Shown here: one piece after another, positions 25,591 to 34,702 of the stretch
Layout: every line of letters begins with the position of its first letter
How positions within the stretch are numbered: the first letter of the stretch is position 1
Assembly (NCBI GenBank): GCA_027618475.1
Contig: JAQCEJ010000012.1
Coordinates: 1 to 64,000 of the forward strand
Reading direction: 5' to 3'
DNA from: Planctomycetota bacterium
GTDB lineage: Bacteria > Planctomycetota > Planctomycetia > Planctomycetales > Planctomycetaceae
DNA: 64,000 nt
Notes under the pieces: generated by a model
Told to the model about the DNA's origin: nothing
Seen by the model: the letters and a program-made list of their open reading frames with translations, nothing else
Databases searched by the model: none
Made by a program: the position numbers and the translations under genes

Positions 25591-25971
25591 GGGTCACCTC
25601 ATCATCTGCGGGAGTCTGCGAAACCTCCTTTGCGCTGCGGACGCAAAAGAACCGATCGTACCGAGCCTGAACGACCCGGCACTATCGATTTTATCGGCAA
25701 TCCGCGACCCGATTTTGCATGTGATTTGAGGCGAACGACCTGTACTTGAGCCAATTTCCAATCGACTTAAATATTTTGCTGATTTTTTTCTAAATTTCTC
25801 AAAAAAAACTGAAGCCGCCCACTTTTTCAACCTACGCTTACTATCGGAGACAACGTCGAAACCCATTCGAGTGACACTTCAACTCCTTGCAATTCATGCT
25901 CGGGTTTCGGCAAGTTCGACGCATCTTTTTCAATTCATCGCGTTCAACTGGCCGCTCTGTGTGGAGTGACC
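25591..25971. other. Intergenic region upstream of the riboswitch, no gene seen
   Basis: Divergent region between the lipoprotein gene and the riboswitch-led operon. A markedly AT-rich stretch with T- and A-runs lies at about 25760-25820. TTGAGC and AAATAT 17 bases apart near 25747-25776 are a weak promoter match for the riboswitch transcript. Confidence 0.4.
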
Positions 25972-26092
25972 ACGATAATAGCAAACCGGTCGCAAGGCCG
26001 GGTCGCAAAGCCATGGGTCTTGCTGCGCTAACATCGGCATTCGCCTGGATGCCGGTTCGTGCGCACGCGAGATCGCCAGGTTACCGAATGGT
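25972..26092 (+). promoter_or_regulatory. Cyclic-di-GMP-I (GEMM) riboswitch aptamer
   Basis: Matches the GEMM-I consensus in order: GCAAACC (25981-25987); a hairpin ccggtc-GCAA-ggccgg (25986-26001) whose loop is a GNRA tetraloop as in the known tertiary contact; GTCGCAAAGCC (26002-26012) against the consensus GACGCAAAGCC; a second, more variable stem region; and the 3-prime block GCCAGGTTACCGAATGG (26075-26091) against the consensus GGGGTTACCGATGG. The aptamer ends about 12 bases before GGAGGGG (26104-26110), the ribosome site of the next gene. That spacing suggests control of translation start, though a transcriptional switch cannot be excluded. Binding of c-di-GMP is established for the family; here it is inferred. 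Confidence 0.9.
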
Positions 26093-26116
26093 ACATCTCT
26101 ATTGGAGGGGACAACG

Positions 26117-26812
26117 ATGAATGAACTCCGAACAGCTCCAAAAGCTACGAACGATTCTCAGAAACCACGCACGCGCTGGAGCTTGATCGCCGTCGCCGTG
26201 GGCTTGATCTGTCTGATGACGAAATCCGTTTTCGCGGTCGATGTCGAACCGGACATTATCCGCATCGAAGAAGACTGGATCGTCGAGATCACGTCTCCCG
26301 ACCCGGACGAAAGTTCTCCGCAGATCATCACATCAATGTCGTCGACCGATGAACTGGCTGATGTTCATGCCGTATTCGAGTTGAATCATCGGACACTTCC
26401 CAATTTCGCAGACGGAGGGATGGAAATCCAGCTGTGGAGTCACGACGAACTGATTGATCTGCGCGTCTCGCCCAAGACGGCGAAATTAAGCTATCCCAAC
26501 GAGACCATCTACTACACGATGGCCATGGAACTGAAGAATGGGAACGTTGATTTCGAAGCCCGCGACGGATACTCGGATACCTGGAATGAATTCGGGCATT
26601 GGAACTATTTGAAAGTCGGGACAACGACAACTCAGACGAGATTGAATTTTTACGACCCCGAGAAATCGGTATCCAATTCCAGGATCGGGTTTGCCAAGCA
26701 TCGCGTCAATCGCTTCGGAATGCTACGCGTCCGCTATTACACGTATGACAACGTGCTGGTACACACCGACTATACCGATCGCATGGTACATGTGCTGGCT
26801 GAAAACCCTTGA
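26117..26812 (+). CDS. Secreted protein of unknown family, first gene after the c-di-GMP riboswitch
   Basis: 231 residues. A signal peptide covers about 20-41 (LIAVAVGLICLMTKSVFA). The mature part starts VDVEPDIIRIEEDWIVEITSPD and contains regular strands such as VHAVFELNHRT, MEIQLWSHDELIDLRV and RFGMLRVRYYTYDNVLV, so it looks like an all-beta exported protein of about 190 residues. No family recognised. GGAGGGG is six bases from the ATG, which fixes the start. Riboswitch position makes it the gene most directly under c-di-GMP control. It is followed on the same strand by TadG- and TadE-like genes; a structural or adhesive role is inferred only. Confidence 0.75.
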   Translation: MNELRTAPKATNDSQKPRTRWSLIAVAVGLICLMTKSVFAVDVEPDIIRIEEDWIVEITSPDPDESSPQIITSMSSTDELADVHAVFELNHRTLPNFADGGMEIQLWSHDELIDLRVSPKTAKLSYPNETIYYTMAMELKNGNVDFEARDGYSDTWNEFGHWNYLKVGTTTTQTRLNFYDPEKSVSNSRIGFAKHRVNRFGMLRVRYYTYDNVLVHTDYTDRMVHVLAENP

Positions 26813-26891
26813 TCGATGACGGTCGTCGATTCCAGTGTTTGCGATATCTCGTGCGCGTCAATCAACGATGGGTCTCTGAGGAAGTCATATC

Positions 26892-28103
26892 ATGAAAACA
26901 ATACAATTGTCAGATCGTTTGAATTCCGTTCGATCGCCTCGCTTTCGACGCGGCAGCGTCCTCGTCCTGGCGGCTTCGATGCTGGTCGCCATCTTTGCAT
27001 TCACATCGTTTACGGTCGACGTCGGATTCATCATGGTGACCAAGTCCGAACTGCAGACCGCCGCCGACGCCGGTTCTCTGGCAGCAGCCATTGAACTTTC
27101 ACAAGGTCTCGGCCCCGCACCCCAAAAGACATCGGCTGAGGTCGATTTACTTTCCAGAGCTGCCGCGGTCAGCGTAGCCGCCCGCAATCCCTCGGGCGAT
27201 CTATCGAGTGCCTATGTCGATTCCAATCGGGACGTTCGACTGGGACAGGTGAATTGGGACGAGAATACGAACAGTTGGGTCAAAAATTGGGGAGTCGCCC
27301 CCTATAACATGGTCGAGGTTTCTGTGCTACGCGAAGAGGGAGCCGGTACCAACAGCGGTCCGTTGCCGCTCTTCTTCGCACCCATTATCGGGCACGAAAC
27401 GGCAAATGTCTCGGCGTCGACGACATCGGCGATCGTTCCCGGCTGGGGGTTTCGGATCGCCGGCGGCAGCGGTCAAACAATTGGCGCATTGCCAATTACG
27501 CTGGATGTCGCCACCTGGAATCGCCTCGTCGCCGATAACAAGGCGCATCACAGCACGGAATTTTCTGACAATTACTCCTATGACCCCGTGACGGGAGCCG
27601 TTACCAGCGGACCAGACGGCATCTTCGAAGAAAACTTTTATCCCCACGGAAATGTTTCGCTGCCTCCAGGAAATCGCGGCACCGTCGATCTTGGAGCGCC
27701 TGGCAACAGCACGGCAGACATCAAACGGCAGATTCTCTATGGTCTGAACGAAAACGACCTGTCGTACTTCGGAGGTGAACTGTGCGCGTCATTCGAAAGC
27801 CCTTTGACGATCAACGGCGACACCGGGCTGAGTGCCGGTATCAAAGCCGAACTTGAAGCGATCAAAGGACAGCCGCGGGCGATTCCATTGTTCTCCGGCG
27901 TCCCGACCGGAAACGGTAATAACGCCATGTATACCGTTCCGCAATTTGTCGGGGTTCGCATCATGCACGTGAAACTAACGGGAAATCCGAAACAGGTCAT
28001 TATCCAGCCGGCGCCGTTTGTCGATTCCAGCGTCGTCTACGACGGCAGAACGACAACCGTTGAAGAAGCGTTCATTTTCTCGAAGCCGCGCAGCATTCGT
28101 TGA
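26892..28103 (+). CDS. TadG-like protein (Flp pilus assembly TadE/G-like N-terminus)
   Basis: 403 residues. RRGSVLVLAASMLVAIFAF...DVGFIMVTKSELQTAADAGSLAAA (about 20-67) is the membrane-plus-helix N-terminus of TadG-type proteins, where the helix after the transmembrane segment carries the AADAGSLAAA motif. The remaining 330 residues are exported, mostly beta, with no VWA MIDAS motif. GAGGA (26878-26882) is nine bases before the ATG. It lies 79 bases after the riboswitch-controlled gene, so is probably in the same transcript. The family contributes minor subunits or assembly factors to Tad pili; no Tad motor gene is in the window. Confidence 0.8.
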   Translation: MKTIQLSDRLNSVRSPRFRRGSVLVLAASMLVAIFAFTSFTVDVGFIMVTKSELQTAADAGSLAAAIELSQGLGPAPQKTSAEVDLLSRAAAVSVAARNPSGDLSSAYVDSNRDVRLGQVNWDENTNSWVKNWGVAPYNMVEVSVLREEGAGTNSGPLPLFFAPIIGHETANVSASTTSAIVPGWGFRIAGGSGQTIGALPITLDVATWNRLVADNKAHHSTEFSDNYSYDPVTGAVTSGPDGIFEENFYPHGNVSLPPGNRGTVDLGAPGNSTADIKRQILYGLNENDLSYFGGELCASFESPLTINGDTGLSAGIKAELEAIKGQPRAIPLFSGVPTGNGNNAMYTVPQFVGVRIMHVKLTGNPKQVIIQPAPFVDSSVVYDGRTTTVEEAFIFSKPRSIR

Positions 28104-28193
28104 TGAAGTTTTTAAGGGACGGGGCGCACGCAAAAGCCGAACTGACCATGTTGTGCCGAGAGGGTTTGACACTCGGCCGGGAAAACACCAGTG

Positions 28194-28661
28194 ATGACAA
28201 AAAGGCTCGACAAAATGATCAAACGAAAGACGACCAATAGGAATCGACGTCGCGGTGCTGCACTGGTTGAAATGGCGCTGGTGTTACCCGTCTTCGTCGC
28301 TGTGACGCTCGGAATCATCGAATTCGGACGGGCGATGATGGTCTCGCAACTCGTGACCAATGCCGCTCGCGAGGGAGCCCGGCTCGGTTCATTCGATGGT
28401 ACAACAAACGCGGAAGTCGAAGAGGAAATTCGATCCTTCCTGCAAGGGTCTGCCAATGTCGGAAGCGGGGAAGTGTCGATCGCCATTACGATCACCCCTG
28501 CAACGGGGAATCCCGATCCGGCAAACGATGCCAGTCAGGCCAACGTACGCGACGAAGTGAATGTTACGGTATCGATTCCGTTTGGCAGCGTCAGCTTCAT
28601 CGATGGCAATTATCTGGCGGGAAAGAACATCACCGGTTCCGCAACCATGCGGCACGAATGA
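28194..28661 (+). CDS. TadE-like minor pseudopilin
   Basis: 155 residues. RRRGAALVEMALVLPVFVAVTLGIIEFGRAMMV (about 19-51) is a typical TadE N-terminus: a basic segment, the VEMALVLPVF motif and a hydrophobic helix ending in EFGR, then AAREGARLG. The rest is an exported domain ending GSATMRHE, an end shared with the next TadE-like protein (AVMRHE). The ATG at 28194 is preferred to the adjacent GTG at 28191. A 6-bp hairpin (28155-28177) lies just upstream and may be an attenuator or mRNA boundary. Confidence 0.85.
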   Translation: MTKRLDKMIKRKTTNRNRRRGAALVEMALVLPVFVAVTLGIIEFGRAMMVSQLVTNAAREGARLGSFDGTTNAEVEEEIRSFLQGSANVGSGEVSIAITITPATGNPDPANDASQANVRDEVNVTVSIPFGSVSFIDGNYLAGKNITGSATMRHE

Positions 28662-28939
28662 ATTCGTTCGTCTCGAACGTATGAGTCCGCAATCGCCAAC
28701 GCCCACCCTTTGCATTTCCCGCAGTATTGCATGCCTCGCAGCAATTCCACCTTCCGTCGAGCCGGCATAATCGTCTCAACCCTCTGTGGCCGAATGATGC
28801 AGCCACCTCTCGATACGCTAAAAATATTTCGTTTCTCCCGCATTCATCAAAATCTTGATCTATGTTTGTTTAGGTAAACTGTACGAAGCGAGAACGTGGG
28901 AAATCGCTGGTTCTCCGTCATTTTTCAGATGGCTCAATC
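28662..28939. promoter_or_regulatory. Gap inside the Tad-like cluster; possible second promoter region
   Basis: About 280 bases between the first and second TadE-like genes, larger than other gaps in the cluster. The last third is AT-rich (AAAATATTT at 28819-28827, TTGTTTAGGTAAACTG at 28866-28881) and holds a GAGAAC...GTTCTC hairpin near 28890-28916. It may carry its own promoter, which would free the three downstream genes from the riboswitch; no convincing -35/-10 pair was found. Confidence 0.3.
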
Positions 28940-29449
28940 GTGAAAAACAATTTCGCTAACACCGATCGCGGCACCATGCAGATCATGCTTCGGCGCACAC
29001 GGTGTCGTAAGGGTACGACGTTAGTCGAAATGGCGGTTGTCTTACCTGTCTTCTTCATGTTTCTGTTTTCCCTGTTTGAATTCGCTCACGTGCATATGGT
29101 TCGAAATATACTTCGAGCTGCTGCGAACAAGGCAGCACGTGAAGGCGTCGTCGATGGCGTTACCACCGCACAAGTCGAACAGCAGGTTATGGAATTCCTT
29201 CAATCGGGAATCAAGAATGCCGATAGCGTCACGGTGCTGATCAAAGACGCCGGCGTATTTGATGATTCAAGTTCTGATCCTTCCGGGATCAATTACTCGA
29301 ATCTACCCGATATCGATTTGTCAAAGGCCGAGTCGCGTCAGCTCTTTATCGTTCGGGTCGAAGTCGACTATGACAAGGTCTCTCTTCTGCCACCAATGTG
29401 GGTCGGTTCCTTAAGACTGGCGGCTCATGCCGTCATGCGGCACGAATAA
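28940..29449 (+). CDS. TadE-like minor pseudopilin
   Basis: 169 residues with a GTG start; ATG codons at 28976 and 28985 are alternatives. CRKGTTLVEMAVVLPVFFMFLFSLFEFAHVHMV (about 22-54) is the TadE signature, followed by AANKAAREGVVDG, which echoes the REGARLGSFDG of its neighbour. An exported domain follows and the end is AVMRHE. Sequence similarity to the flanking TadE-like genes suggests local duplication. Probably anchored in the inner membrane with the C-terminal part outside. Confidence 0.82.
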   Translation: MKNNFANTDRGTMQIMLRRTRCRKGTTLVEMAVVLPVFFMFLFSLFEFAHVHMVRNILRAAANKAAREGVVDGVTTAQVEQQVMEFLQSGIKNADSVTVLIKDAGVFDDSSSDPSGINYSNLPDIDLSKAESRQLFIVRVEVDYDKVSLLPPMWVGSLRLAAHAVMRHE

Positions 29450-29495
29450 AACAGAGAATCGCATATAGAAGTCACGACGACCAGCAAGGAAATCC

Positions 29496-30014
29496 ATGAT
29501 GCAAAAGCATCGTCTCCGTTCTCGAGAACGTTTAGGTGTCCGCTGTCTTCATCGTCGCAGAGGGGCGGCGATCGTCGAATTCGCCATAATGGCACCCGTA
29601 TTCCTTCTCCTGCTGATGGGATCCATCGAGTCCGGCAAAGCCCTGGAAATCAGCAACATACTCTCATCGGCGATACGCCAGGGGGGACGGCTGGCTTGCA
29701 TGGACTGGGAAGGCTTCTCCTCTTCACAACAATCATCAAACCTCAAAGTCGAGTCCGATATCCGAAATTTTCTCATCGCATCGGGTATCGACGGCGATGA
29801 TGTCGAAATTACGATTACATCCGCCGACGGAGACGACTCGGGAGATACGTTTGACTTGTCCAATCCCGCCAATCGGCTCCGTATGTTTCGTATCACGGCG
29901 ACGGTCGCCTTCGATGACGTTAACAATTACCCGATTCCGGTTAAGTTCATGAACGGCAAGAACGTCTCGATGTCGATCGTCTTTCGGGCAGGTAATTCGA
30001 GCATGAGCAATTAA
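29496..30014 (+). CDS. TadE-like minor pseudopilin
   Basis: 172 residues, third TadE-like protein of the cluster. HRRRGAAIVEFAIMAPVFLLLLMGSIESGKALEI (about 19-52) has the same layout, with IVEFAIMAPVF in place of LVEMALVLPVF and ESGK in place of EFGR. IRQGGRLACMDWEG follows. It ends with a C-terminal domain without the MRHE tail. AAGGAAA precedes the ATG by about six bases. The 46-base gap from the previous gene suggests co-transcription. Confidence 0.82.
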   Translation: MMQKHRLRSRERLGVRCLHRRRGAAIVEFAIMAPVFLLLLMGSIESGKALEISNILSSAIRQGGRLACMDWEGFSSSQQSSNLKVESDIRNFLIASGIDGDDVEITITSADGDDSGDTFDLSNPANRLRMFRITATVAFDDVNNYPIPVKFMNGKNVSMSIVFRAGNSSMSN

Positions 30015-30172
30015 AACAAACAGGCGGTCGCCGGACCGATCTCGAACATCGAGATTCGTTCTCTTCAATAGCATTTTGAATTCGTAACGGATTCAGCAAC
30101 GGCTCAATCGTCTTCGTGGAAATCAGGGTTGAAACAAACTTGCAAGCGTGTCAGGGCAGGGAGAAACGAATT

Positions 30173-32137
30173 ATGGCAAACGGTAGAATTGGCTCGAGTG
30201 GTCGATCGAAACAGCCGTCGACAACAGGCAAAAATATTTCTTCGTCAAAGCGACGAGGGGCATTCATGGTTCTGGCCGTGTTTGCATTGATCGCGGCGAT
30301 CAGCATGGTCGCGTTGGGCGTCGATCTTGGCGTAGTTTCGCTGACGAAAACGAAAATGCAAAATGCCGTGGATGCAGCGGCCCTGGCCGCCGCGCAGGAA
30401 ATCATCACCGCTGTGGAAAATGTGGGGCAAAACAGCGGCGACGGAGCCGATGTTGCAGACGCTAACGCCAGCGCGATGGCCCCCGCCCGACAAATGGCGA
30501 TGAACGTGGCCAACATGAACGGCGTCCATGTCGATCCCGATGACGATGTCCGCTTCGGCAAACGTTATTACAACAAGAATTCCAATACGTATGGGATCAC
30601 TTGGGATGAGGCTCCCTACAACGTCGTCAAAGTAACGGCACGACGGGATAACGCCACTCCCGGTAAAGACGACTCCGAACTCACGCTCTTTTTTGCCCGC
30701 ATCTGGGGAAAGAAGTCGACGTCGCTGACGGCTTCTGCTGTCGCCTATGTCGAACCGCGCGATATCGTGCTGGTACTCGACTATTCGGGGTCGATGAATG
30801 ATGACAGCGAATTGGGGGCCATATCCAAGCTGGGTCAGACCAACGTCGAAGCGAACATCTATCAGATCTGGCAAGATCTGGGATCACCTTCCTACGGTAA
30901 CATGACATTTACACCCAACTGGGTCACGATTCCGGGCCAGCCCGCATCCGGCGCCATTCCTCACATTAAAGTCACATGGAAGGCGACGGAGATTTATGTG
31001 GTCTCAACAAAAGACTTGAGCAACGTTGTGCTCGAGTTTCAGGGGGGAAGCACACAGAAATTCGAAGGTCTGAGCAACACCACCGGGACGTTCAAGGGAA
31101 CGGGGTCTAAGAGTGGAAAACTCATCACGAACTGTTGGATCAAATCAGGAGACAACAGTAGCGGTGACTGCCCGGGGTGCGGAGAAGAATTCAACTTCTA
31201 TAGCAATACGGCCATCAAAAAAGGCCTCGGTTTGAGTAATGTCGCTTACCCTTATGCCAGCGGAAGTTGGGATGATTACATTGAATACTGTCGTGGTAAT
31301 TCCAGTTCCGGTTCCGGATACAGTAACGATGTCTATAACGCCGGATACTGTCGCAAATTCGGGATACTGACGCTGATCGATTACTGGAACAGCGAAAAAC
31401 CCAAGTTCAGCCAGACCAATGCTCTTTGGAAAACACACCAGTACCCGGTAGCAGCCATGCGGAGTGGTGCCTCCTTATTCACCAACTTTCTGGCAGGTTT
31501 GGATTTCGGTGATCACGTCGGTCTGGTGACTTATGATTCGGTCGGACGTATCGAGAAAACACTCAGCCATCCGTCGTTTCCTGAGTCGGTCAATCTGGGT
31601 AACTCGCCCCTCACCGATCAGTACGACGACATTGCGACGATTGTTAATCACAAACAAGCCGGCCATTACGATCTCTACACCAATATCGCCGACGGTATCA
31701 ATAACTCGATCCAGCTGCTCGAAGAACATCGTCGTGCCGGTGCAAAACCGATCATCATTCTGATGACCGACGGCAACGCCAATCGAAAAGTCAACGGCGT
31801 TCAGACTCCGAGTGGCTGGAACTGGAACAACCTCACCGATTACAACGATGACGGGCAATCCGACTATTCGACGAACGACCAGTACAAACTGTGCGCCATG
31901 ATCAAGGCCAAAGAAGCCGTTGATCTCGGATTCACGATTCACACATTGACCGTCGGTGTCGGGGCCGATCGCGACTTCATGAAGGCGATCGCCCACATGG
32001 GGAAAGGGGATTGGATCGATTGCCCGGGGGGAACGTCCGTCGGTGAGATGGACACACAATTGCTCGCGGCCTTCAGCAAGATCGCTGCCAACGTTCCGCC
32101 GGCGAAATTGATGGCTGATCCGGATCAGGCGGACTGA
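30173..32137 (+). CDS. TadG-like protein with a VWA domain split by a long insertion
   Basis: 654 residues. RRGAFMVLAVFALIAAISMVALGVDLGVVSLTKTKMQNAVDAAALAAA (in several steps, about 28-75) is the TadG N-terminus. A von Willebrand A domain starts at VLVLDYSGSMND with a full MIDAS triad (D203-x-S205-x-S207). The matching TDG aspartate (ILMTDGNAN) is only at D533, so about 330 residues separate parts normally about 100 apart. The inserted region contains SGDCPGCGEEFNFYSN, a four-residue cysteine pair, and Ser/Gly-rich loops. GGGAG lies about nine bases before the ATG at 30173; the upstream ATG at 30116 gives an improbable leader. Probably an exposed metal-dependent adhesion component. Confidence 0.85.
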   Translation: MANGRIGSSGRSKQPSTTGKNISSSKRRGAFMVLAVFALIAAISMVALGVDLGVVSLTKTKMQNAVDAAALAAAQEIITAVENVGQNSGDGADVADANASAMAPARQMAMNVANMNGVHVDPDDDVRFGKRYYNKNSNTYGITWDEAPYNVVKVTARRDNATPGKDDSELTLFFARIWGKKSTSLTASAVAYVEPRDIVLVLDYSGSMNDDSELGAISKLGQTNVEANIYQIWQDLGSPSYGNMTFTPNWVTIPGQPASGAIPHIKVTWKATEIYVVSTKDLSNVVLEFQGGSTQKFEGLSNTTGTFKGTGSKSGKLITNCWIKSGDNSSGDCPGCGEEFNFYSNTAIKKGLGLSNVAYPYASGSWDDYIEYCRGNSSSGSGYSNDVYNAGYCRKFGILTLIDYWNSEKPKFSQTNALWKTHQYPVAAMRSGASLFTNFLAGLDFGDHVGLVTYDSVGRIEKTLSHPSFPESVNLGNSPLTDQYDDIATIVNHKQAGHYDLYTNIADGINNSIQLLEEHRRAGAKPIIILMTDGNANRKVNGVQTPSGWNWNNLTDYNDDGQSDYSTNDQYKLCAMIKAKEAVDLGFTIHTLTVGVGADRDFMKAIAHMGKGDWIDCPGGTSVGEMDTQLLAAFSKIAANVPPAKLMADPDQAD

Positions 32138-32181: not shown

Positions 32182-32218
32182 CAACACCCGGATGACGCGA
32201 AGTCATCCGGGTGTTGTT
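32182..32218. terminator. Bidirectional terminator between convergent genes
   Basis: Perfect 15-bp stem (32182-32196 with 32202-32216) and a 5-base loop GCGAA, 44 bases after the VWA-protein stop. A short T-rich end on the plus side and an A-rich left flank (AAAAT) serve both directions; the convergent repeat-rich gene ends at 32244. Confidence 0.8.
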
Positions 32219-32243: not shown

Positions 32244-34385
32244 TCAGTTCCCCTTCTGCTGGATGATCACGGGAAGGGAACCCTCTTCCGGTGCAGCTCC
32301 TTGCTCATTGGACTCGACCTTTGACGCCCCTTCCGGATTCGGTGTCGGAGGGGCGGGTGGCGGTCCGGCTTTCGCCGGTGCGGGATCAACCCCCTTCACG
32401 GTGCTGGGGTCGCCTCCCAATTCCTTAAATAATTGACTGGCGATTTCATCGTCAGGAACCAGTTTGAGAGTCTGTTCGAATTTCGCCTTGGCATGTTCTT
32501 TGTGACCAATCACCTTGTACATGTATCCAAGCAAGAACGAATTAAATGGCGAATCGGTCGTTTTCTTGACGTCAGCCTCCAAGGCGCGAAGTTGCTTGGT
32601 AAAGTCTTCCGCATTTTTGTAGTGAGCAATCATCGTCTCCCAGGTTGGCTCACCTTTGTAGTGGACGACGGCGTGTGCTTCGATTGCCGAGTTCTGGTAA
32701 TCACCCTGGGCAAACAGACTCAACCACAACAATTCATGAACCTTAGGGCTTTCCGGCAGTTCGATCGCGGCATGGCTCGCCATGCGAACGGCCTGACCAT
32801 ATTCTCCATCATTGAATGCATCGTTCGCGGCATTCAAGAATTGAAGGCCTAAGTCGTCATCGGCATTCGCCGGGGGCGTCGCCGAACTATCGGGATCGAT
32901 CTGCGCGAGTTCAGTCGAGGCATATTGATCAACTGGGGCCGTTTCGGAATACGTGTAACCGCCACCTTGAGTATACACAATCGGCTGTACATAACCTGTG
33001 TTGTAGTATGAGGCATAGCCGATGTACGGAGCGTACAATCCATTACCGCCGAATCCGTCATAGCCACCGTATCCGTAAGTACCATATCCAAAACCGAATC
33101 CACCGTATCCGAGGCTGAGAATAAAGTTGTTTCTCGGACCACCGTAGCCATAGCCTCGATGGCGGGGGGGGTTGCCATATCCACCACCATACCAGCGGTT
33201 CCCCCACGAGTTATAGCGGGGATTGAAGGCGAACGAGCGGTGTCCACCATTGTGATTGTGACCATACCGCACGTTGATGCTGTTGTTGCGATGGCTGTGA
33301 TGGCCGTGATGGCCGCCGTAGTTTCCGCGATTGAAACTGTCGTTTCCCCGTCCCTCGAAATTATTAAAATTGCGGGAGCCGAAGTTGGAATTTCCTCCGT
33401 TGTTTCGATTCACAACCGATGGGTTGAAATGATGGTTTTTTCCGTCACGGTTATTTGCGTTGAAATTGCGCGTGTTCGATCCTGAATGACTGCTGAACGT
33501 CCGATGGCTGTTCCCACCTTGTTTTCCGGATTGTCCACGGAATGTCGCGCCTGAGTTTCCGTTTTTAAAACCGTTTTCGCCTCGTCCCTCGTTACTCCTA
33601 CTCTTACCGGAACCGAAGTCGAAGTTCTTCGCACCATTTCGATTCACGATCGACGGATTGAATTGATGATCTCGTCCATTGTCGCGAGCGTCGTCGATAC
33701 TACGGCTTTTCGACCCCGATTGACCGCTGAACGTCCGATGGCTGTTGCCGGTCTTGTTTCCGGATGGTCCACGGAATGTCGCGCCTGAGTTTTCACCACG
33801 CGGGGAAATCCGATTGACCGAATTGCTGCTGTTGCCGCGGTTCGAAGAACCAATATTTCCACTTTGCGTACGAGGTGTAATACTTCGGTTCTGGCCTTGA
33901 AACTGTGAACCACCGCGAGGCTGCGAACTGGCGCTGCGGTTACCACTGGGCGGGCGGGAAGATCCTCCACTGAAACTGCGTGATGATCCACCACTCAAAC
34001 CGCTCTTTGAGCCACCGCGAGGCTGCGAACTGGCACTGCGGTTACCACTGGGCGGGCGGGAAGACCCTCCACTGAAACTGCGTGATGATCCACCGCTAAA
34101 ACCGCTCTTTGAGCCACCGCGAGGCTGCGAACTGGCGCTGCGGTTACCACTGGGTTGGCGGGAAGACCCTCCACTGAAACTGCGTGACGATCCACCACTC
34201 AAACCGCTCTTTGAGCCGCCACCTCTGCTGGCGCTGCTTCCTCCACCGCCGCCGCGACTGCTACCGCCACCTCCACCTTTTCCGCCACCCCCGCCGCGCT
34301 GTGCGAAGATATCGGGCCCCGTGGCGACAATCAGCACAAGGCTGAGTAAACCGGCACCCCAAGTTCTTGTTTTGAGAGGTATCAT
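32244..34385 (-). CDS. Secreted Gly/Ser/Arg/Asn-rich repeat protein with TPR-like C-terminus
   Basis: 713 residues. A signal peptide (about 1-28, ending DIFAQ) leads into RGGGGGKGGGGG and then three tandem 34-residue repeats beginning GGSKSG(L/F)SGGSSRSFSG, followed by longer degenerate Ser/Asn/Arg/His repeats with recurring NSHRTFSG and HHFNPSVVNRN units. A Gly/Tyr-rich stretch (GYGGFGFGYGTYGYGGY) follows. The final 200 residues are different: FLNAANDAFNDGEYGQAVRMASHAAIELPES and LFAQGDYQNSAIEAHAVVHYKGEP look like tetratricopeptide helices. AAGG is eight bases from the ATG. Probably an extended, surface-exposed protein. Convergent with the TadG/VWA gene. Confidence 0.8.
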   Translation of the reverse strand: MIPLKTRTWGAGLLSLVLIVATGPDIFAQRGGGGGKGGGGGSSRGGGGGSSASRGGGSKSGLSGGSSRSFSGGSSRQPSGNRSASSQPRGGSKSGFSGGSSRSFSGGSSRPPSGNRSASSQPRGGSKSGLSGGSSRSFSGGSSRPPSGNRSASSQPRGGSQFQGQNRSITPRTQSGNIGSSNRGNSSNSVNRISPRGENSGATFRGPSGNKTGNSHRTFSGQSGSKSRSIDDARDNGRDHQFNPSIVNRNGAKNFDFGSGKSRSNEGRGENGFKNGNSGATFRGQSGKQGGNSHRTFSSHSGSNTRNFNANNRDGKNHHFNPSVVNRNNGGNSNFGSRNFNNFEGRGNDSFNRGNYGGHHGHHSHRNNSINVRYGHNHNGGHRSFAFNPRYNSWGNRWYGGGYGNPPRHRGYGYGGPRNNFILSLGYGGFGFGYGTYGYGGYDGFGGNGLYAPYIGYASYYNTGYVQPIVYTQGGGYTYSETAPVDQYASTELAQIDPDSSATPPANADDDLGLQFLNAANDAFNDGEYGQAVRMASHAAIELPESPKVHELLWLSLFAQGDYQNSAIEAHAVVHYKGEPTWETMIAHYKNAEDFTKQLRALEADVKKTTDSPFNSFLLGYMYKVIGHKEHAKAKFEQTLKLVPDDEIASQLFKELGGDPSTVKGVDPAPAKAGPPPAPPTPNPEGASKVESNEQGAAPEEGSLPVIIQQKGN
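33910..34215. repeat. Three tandem 102-bp repeats inside the repeat-rich protein gene
   Basis: Units start at 33910, 34012 and 34114 with an exact period of 102 bases and few mismatches, each encoding 34 residues. Near identity at DNA level indicates recent expansion. Confidence 0.9.
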
Positions 34386-34702
34386 CGCTTGATTCCTTAA
34401 AGCCCAACGTTTCCAAAAACGATCGTCGCCATTCCTACGACTCCTGTGCCGTTCTTCCCTGTTCAGCACCCATTACCTCTTTAACTTCGCAACTGCCATT
34501 CCGGTTGGCGACGAATGGATGAGTTTATGAATTATACGAACTCTCGATTGAGAAAAGGGCCTAAATCCAGCTGAAATACGACCTGATCGAGCGGCGAATA
34601 TTTCGCAACTCGACAGAACATCCTCCGCCAGGATTCTCATACCATGTCGTCGACTCGATAATTCCGTCGTCAATGTGACAACAGAAATGAGCCCGGCCGG
34701 CA
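34386..34702. other. Intergenic region, no gene seen
   Basis: About 317 bases between two minus-strand genes; probably holds the promoter of the repeat-rich protein gene. No supported gene, and no clear hairpin terminator for the esterase was found. Confidence 0.4.

Follow-up and report, generated by a model that had tools for sequence, protein, structure and literature searches.

A planctomycete GEMM-I riboswitch ahead of a candidate Tad pilus tip cassette

In Myxococcus, separately encoded TadEFG-like tip clusters are reported to serve a single Tad pilus, which can carry four interchangeable Kil tips (PMC12075869). In the Kil clusters of Myxococcus xanthus (KilL, KilM and KilN), the TadE/F/G-like minor pilins lie apart from the Tad machine and the tip is a large TadG-like protein whose C-terminal domain varies. 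Type IV pilus genes under riboswitch control have also been described: in Geobacter, pilM is a pilus gene under a riboswitch for 3',3'-cyclic GMP-AMP (cGAMP) that works as a transcriptional ON switch with a terminator (PMC9262584, PMC8835794). Here we describe a locus that brings a riboswitch and a remote cluster of this kind together. It lies in a 64,000-nucleotide stretch of a Planctomycetaceae genome (assembly GCA_027618475.1, contig JAQCEJ010000012.1, positions 1 to 64,000; hereafter the window), where an aptamer of the cyclic dimeric GMP (c-di-GMP) class precedes six genes on the + strand. In the open-licence papers searched, nothing was found that links c-di-GMP riboswitches to TadE or to the pili of planctomycetes.

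Like the Kil clusters, the locus is a group of TadE/G-like genes remote from a Tad machine, with a large TadG-like protein as a shared feature. It differs in its riboswitch, none being seen for the Kil clusters in the available part of that report, and, as far as the genes tell, in a leading secreted beta-sandwich protein, a VWA domain in the second TadG-like protein and three TadE-like proteins. We read it as a riboswitch-controlled tip cassette of a Tad (type IVc) pilus, the machine for which is encoded at other sites of the genome, and put the probability of this reading at roughly two in three. The features are as follows.

25970-26088, + strand: GEMM-I (c-di-GMP-I class) riboswitch aptamer (cmscan, RF01051, 60.2 bits, E 2.7e-9)
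26089-26116, + strand: spacer of 28 nt from the aptamer to the first ATG, with the Shine-Dalgarno sequence GGAGGGG
26117-26812, + strand: secreted protein, first gene; signal-peptide-like N terminus followed by a beta-sandwich; no family in Pfam or NCBIfam
26892-28103, + strand: TadG1, TadG-like minor pilin (Pfam Tad 35.2 bits, Tad_C 22.6)
28191-28661, + strand: TadE1, TadE-like minor pilin (Pfam TadE 62.3 bits; prepilin site RRRG/AALVE); a further ATG lies in frame at 28194
28662-28939, + strand: gap of 278 nt between the two halves of the cluster
28940-29449, + strand: TadE2, TadE-like minor pilin (Pfam TadE 49.9 bits; prepilin site RKG/TTLVE)
29496-30014, + strand: TadE3, TadE-like minor pilin (Pfam TadE 42.2 bits; prepilin site RRRG/AAIVE)
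30173-32137, + strand: TadG2, TadG-like minor pilin with a split VWA domain (Pfam Tad 39.7, VWA_2 28.8 bits); ATG 30173 is the more likely start, GTG 30116 the alternative

An initial annotation, made from the DNA letters, had proposed that a c-di-GMP riboswitch leads a TadE/TadG cluster starting at 26117, and both parts of this were borne out, the riboswitch as to its class. The aptamer sits just 5' of that start and scores well above the gathering score of its family (35 bits); it is the only RF01051 match in the 5.93-Mb assembly. The related c-di-GMP-I-GGC class (RF03167) was rejected, the score of 56.7 bits falling below the cutoff of 59 and position 47 (26007) being A rather than G. Three relatives' aptamers were called as GGC, yet A47 was present in every aptamer that was read. 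The window's aptamer resembles the Vc2 and Cd1 GEMM-I riboswitches (RF01051) in sequence and structure, in keeping A47 and C92 and in having surface-structure genes downstream; it differs in that these genes are Tad minor pilins and in carrying A instead of G at position 20.

The gene list of the initial annotation was likewise upheld. All five pilin-like proteins exceed the Pfam cutoffs for a TadE or Tad domain, while the secreted protein has no Pfam match. A glutamate at +5 of the prepilin cleavage site is found in all three TadE proteins and is absent from both TadG proteins. In TadG2 the VWA motif DxSGS (as DYSGS) lies at residue 203 and TDG at residue 532; as about 330 residues separate them, a large module has apparently been inserted within the VWA domain.

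Support for a controlled unit comes from comparison with other planctomycetes, a step that the initial annotation had recommended. RF01051 was matched in 34 of the 170 genomes of the order, and the surroundings of all 42 listed aptamers, the window's included, were examined; two of these score below the gathering threshold. Directly downstream of 26 of the 42 lies a Tad minor-pilin cassette (the secreted protein and/or TadG/TadE). Our own estimate for randomly placed aptamers is about 0.02, taking about 6 Tad loci in a genome of 5.9 Mb and a position within 1 kb upstream on the same strand, so the pairing is not due to chance. The gene for the secreted protein is followed directly by TadG1 at 25 distinct loci, with those found in overlapping sets counted once each. 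Exceptions to this order are L118, where relatives of TadE2, TadE3 and TadG2 follow, L120, which is cut by a contig edge, and L153, which is rearranged. In the closest relative (L107/L138) the riboswitch is followed by just the secreted protein, TadG1 and TadE1; its secreted protein is 62% identical to that of the window. In a tree built from 36 of the secreted proteins, the distribution of the riboswitch needs 7 changes, compared with a mean of 10.8 when the labels are shuffled. Judged from this tree, the link between riboswitch and cassette appears either to be old or to have arisen repeatedly, with frequent losses. The conserved arrangement suggests that the signal may decide which tip or adhesin is placed on attachment pili.

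The other 16 aptamers precede giant proteins (8), an RTX protein (1), a pilin-like gene or pilus cluster (5) or unassigned genes (2), the giant-protein and pilin groups having been drawn in part from no more than size and resemblance in sequence. At L098, L101, L102, L105, L106, L116, L117 and L125 the aptamer is directly followed by a giant protein of about 700-1,900 amino acids; that of L098, the one scanned, contains PKD, bacterial Ig and cadherin-like domains. The clusters that start with a type IV pilin are those of L104, L108, L110, L112 and L124, and the two of their pilins that were scanned have the N-methyl motif. The L104 cluster also encodes an ATPase with an MshEN domain, and the messenger may therefore act on both the RNA and the protein of one pilus. 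Two loci have paired aptamers. At L101 two GEMM-I aptamers are 2.8 kb apart, the first leading TadE-TadG-TadE and the second a giant protein, and at L100 two near-identical GEMM-I aptamers with their leaders are 2.4 kb apart, the second before a 565-residue protein.

A tip cassette of this kind would depend on a machine encoded at a distance. The initial annotation had described the cluster as being without a Tad machine. No match to the TadA ATPase, a secretin or Flp was found on the window's contig (the search for a prepilin peptidase did not take in the whole window), so this holds locally for the first three, but as a statement about the organism it is not supported. A search of the genome for tadA, tadZ and rcpA, also suggested there, showed that contig C53 carries side by side Flp, an A24 prepilin peptidase, RcpC, a secretin with a pilus N-terminal domain and a TadZ-like ATPase, and that three TadA-TadB-TadC sets are present (contigs C218, C84 and C199). 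A second A24 peptidase, on contig C153, adjoins a TadE. The genome thus holds the same kinds of gene (TadE, TadG, Flp, A24 peptidase, RcpC, secretin, TadZ-like, TadA-B-C) as the Tad/Flp pilus of Aggregatibacter and Caulobacter; unlike in those systems the genes are spread over several contigs and minor pilins stand in orphan cassettes, the machine genes not being adjacent to the window's minor pilins. It would seem that a distant Tad machine uses these pilins, which was one of two possibilities named in the initial annotation and is the one we favour. Further TadE/TadG groups, on contigs C37 and C23 (L030 and L031) of the same genome, have no GEMM-I aptamer and possibly encode alternative tips.

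In the mechanism we propose, TadE1-3, TadG1 and TadG2 would enter the inner membrane, be cut by a Tad prepilin peptidase and be assembled into a minor-pilin complex at the end of an Flp fibre, where the VWA domain of TadG2 and the secreted, lectin-like beta-sandwich protein would provide an adhesive surface. The GEMM-I riboswitch in the 5' leader would sense a cyclic dinucleotide and open or close the ribosome-binding site of the first gene, and the second messenger would thereby set when the tip is produced.

The lectin-like character is suggested by modelling. Searching Pfam, NCBIfam and the Protein Data Bank with the sequence of the secreted protein gave no convincing match. An AlphaFold2 model is a beta-sandwich with a predicted local distance difference test score (pLDDT) of 83.8, and its best fold matches are thrombospondin C-terminal domains, glycopeptide-bound HC7 and galectins (Z 8.0-8.7, identity 2-9%). 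The protein possibly resembles lectins of the galectin/ConA type, a modest match that is near chance level for such folds and that we regard as a lead. Its homologues occur in 47 of 150 genomes, and in a phylum-wide sample in 6 of 246, confined to the window's own family. The model of TadG1 (pLDDT 75) has a long helix at the N terminus and a body rich in beta structure; aligned with 12 relatives (40-72% identity) its C-terminal domain is strongly conserved.

The riboswitch likely acts at translation rather than through a terminator, because the 28-nt spacer, with its Shine-Dalgarno sequence, is too short for an intrinsic terminator; in this it differs from pilM, as it does in its Tad genes. 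In fold models of 20 riboswitches, which are related sequences, the mean probability that the Shine-Dalgarno pairs upstream of the aptamer was 0.73, compared with 0.37 when the upstream sequence was shuffled. In several of the 20 the partner is an extension of the closing helix of the aptamer; such pairing would favour OFF upon ligand binding, with ON as the possible alternative. A conserved anti-Shine-Dalgarno 5' of the aptamer was considered and set aside: it is suggestive over the 20 loci but not significant for the window, and the count of CTCC is only modestly above shuffles (15 vs 8.8 ± 2.6).

Several observations weigh against the tip-cassette reading. In the fold models the window's own Shine-Dalgarno showed no excess of pairing (0.46 vs 0.48 shuffled). 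RF01051 was absent from 12 loci with the secreted gene that were scanned permissively over about 1.5 kb upstream, and the link between riboswitch and cassette is therefore common but not obligatory. The C-terminal fold of TadG1 was not recognised in the fold search, where no match had E < 0.001 and the best Z of 7.2 was to an unrelated enzyme. The Tad machines could instead be supplied by the other TadE/TadG genes of the genome. Finally, TadE2, TadE3 and TadG2 lie beyond the gap of 278 nt, and relatives of TadG2 are near-universal, with homologues in 153 of the 170 genomes of the order, mostly away from riboswitches, so the second half may have a transcript of its own.

This last point leads to the main rival, in which the riboswitch controls only the secreted protein, TadG1 and TadE1 (26117-28661), and TadE2-TadE3-TadG2 form a separate operon in the same direction. 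We consider this a serious alternative, at somewhat less than even odds. The three-gene arrangement of the closest relative fits it, and the gap and the prevalence of TadG2 relatives without riboswitches also favour it. The initial annotation had placed a gap of 280 bases at 28662 and thought that it may break the transcript. The gap is real, at 278 bases, and a consensus scan of its + strand found no terminator and no sigma-70 promoter, though planctomycete promoters may escape such a scan; it neither shows nor excludes a break. The missing terminator argues against two operons, as does L118, where the riboswitch is followed by the secreted protein and next by the relatives of TadE2, TadE3 and TadG2. 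Relatives of TadG2 also stand inside the riboswitch-led clusters of L109, L113, L114 and L119. In the tip-cassette reading, control would reach past the gap.

A different rival concerns the ligand. When the Vc2 numbering is transferred to the window by our own mapping from the RF01051 alignment, two of the three c-di-GMP specificity contacts are kept, A47 (26007) and C92 (26084), while G20 is replaced by A (25980). The initial assignment to c-di-GMP is thus sound for the aptamer class and weakened at the specificity position; the change bears on the ligand and not on the fold of the class. Riboswitches for 3',3'-cGAMP (GEMM-Ib), among them those of Geobacter including pilM (PMC9262584, PMC8835794), are marked by A in place of G20, and a G20A mutant of a GEMM-I RNA binds 3',3'-cGAMP (PMC7288161, PMC6274999). 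A natural cGAMP riboswitch contacts its ligand via A11-A12-U13-A14 (PMC7288161, PMC6274999), and the window's sequence up to the G20 position is AAUA. The aptamer might then be a 3',3'-cGAMP or dual-specificity riboswitch, with the tip cassette answering to cGAMP. On the other hand, the nearest relative has G at position 20, as do 38 of the 42 aptamers (A in 2, C in 2), the two cases of C showing drift to another base, and the argument turns on a single base of one assembly, which is of metagenome type and has 218 contigs. Hypr enzymes have Ser where canonical GGDEF proteins have Asp (PMC6456294). Of the genome's five GGDEF proteins, four carry the canonical Asp at this specificity position and a GGDEF motif is missing from the fifth. 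No Hypr GGDEF was thus detected, a difference from the Geobacter cGAMP riboswitches; a SMODS synthase gave no match, other synthase families lying outside the search. The searches for a cGAMP synthase of these two types gave no backing for this ligand. From the sequence c-di-GMP appears the likelier ligand, cGAMP or dual binding being possible, and we regard a switch that answers to cGAMP as unlikely. In one genus (g45) the aptamers before the giant protein at L116, L117 and L125 have C, G and A, respectively, at the G20 position.

An independent surface or matrix module, built from these proteins outside any Tad pilus, is improbable: the lack of an adjacent TadA, secretin or Flp gene, the secreted beta-sandwich protein at the head of the cluster and the VWA domain would fit it, but prepilin-type sites are found in all three TadE proteins, every kind of Tad gene is present on other contigs of the genome, and there is a known precedent for remote tip clusters (PMC12075869).

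What was already known is the riboswitch control of type IV pilus genes and, in one predator, remote Tad tip clusters. If the tip-cassette reading is true, a second messenger would choose the tip cargo of a Tad pilus while the machine stays unchanged. This would be a concrete output of c-di-GMP (or cGAMP) for planctomycetes, whose attachment biology is poorly understood, and the family of the secreted first-gene product, of unknown function, would gain a testable role. A bolder version, in which a cyclic-dinucleotide riboswitch selects the Tad tip via translation of a remote cassette and the G20A change has shifted control from c-di-GMP toward 3',3'-cGAMP, strikes us as a long shot.

One further element lies downstream of the cluster.

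32182-32216, called on the - strand only: 15-bp hairpin, possible terminator, between the cluster and the convergent gene

The convergent gene (32244-34469, - strand) encodes a 741-residue protein with Gly/Ser/Asn-rich repeats and weak matches to tetratricopeptide repeats.

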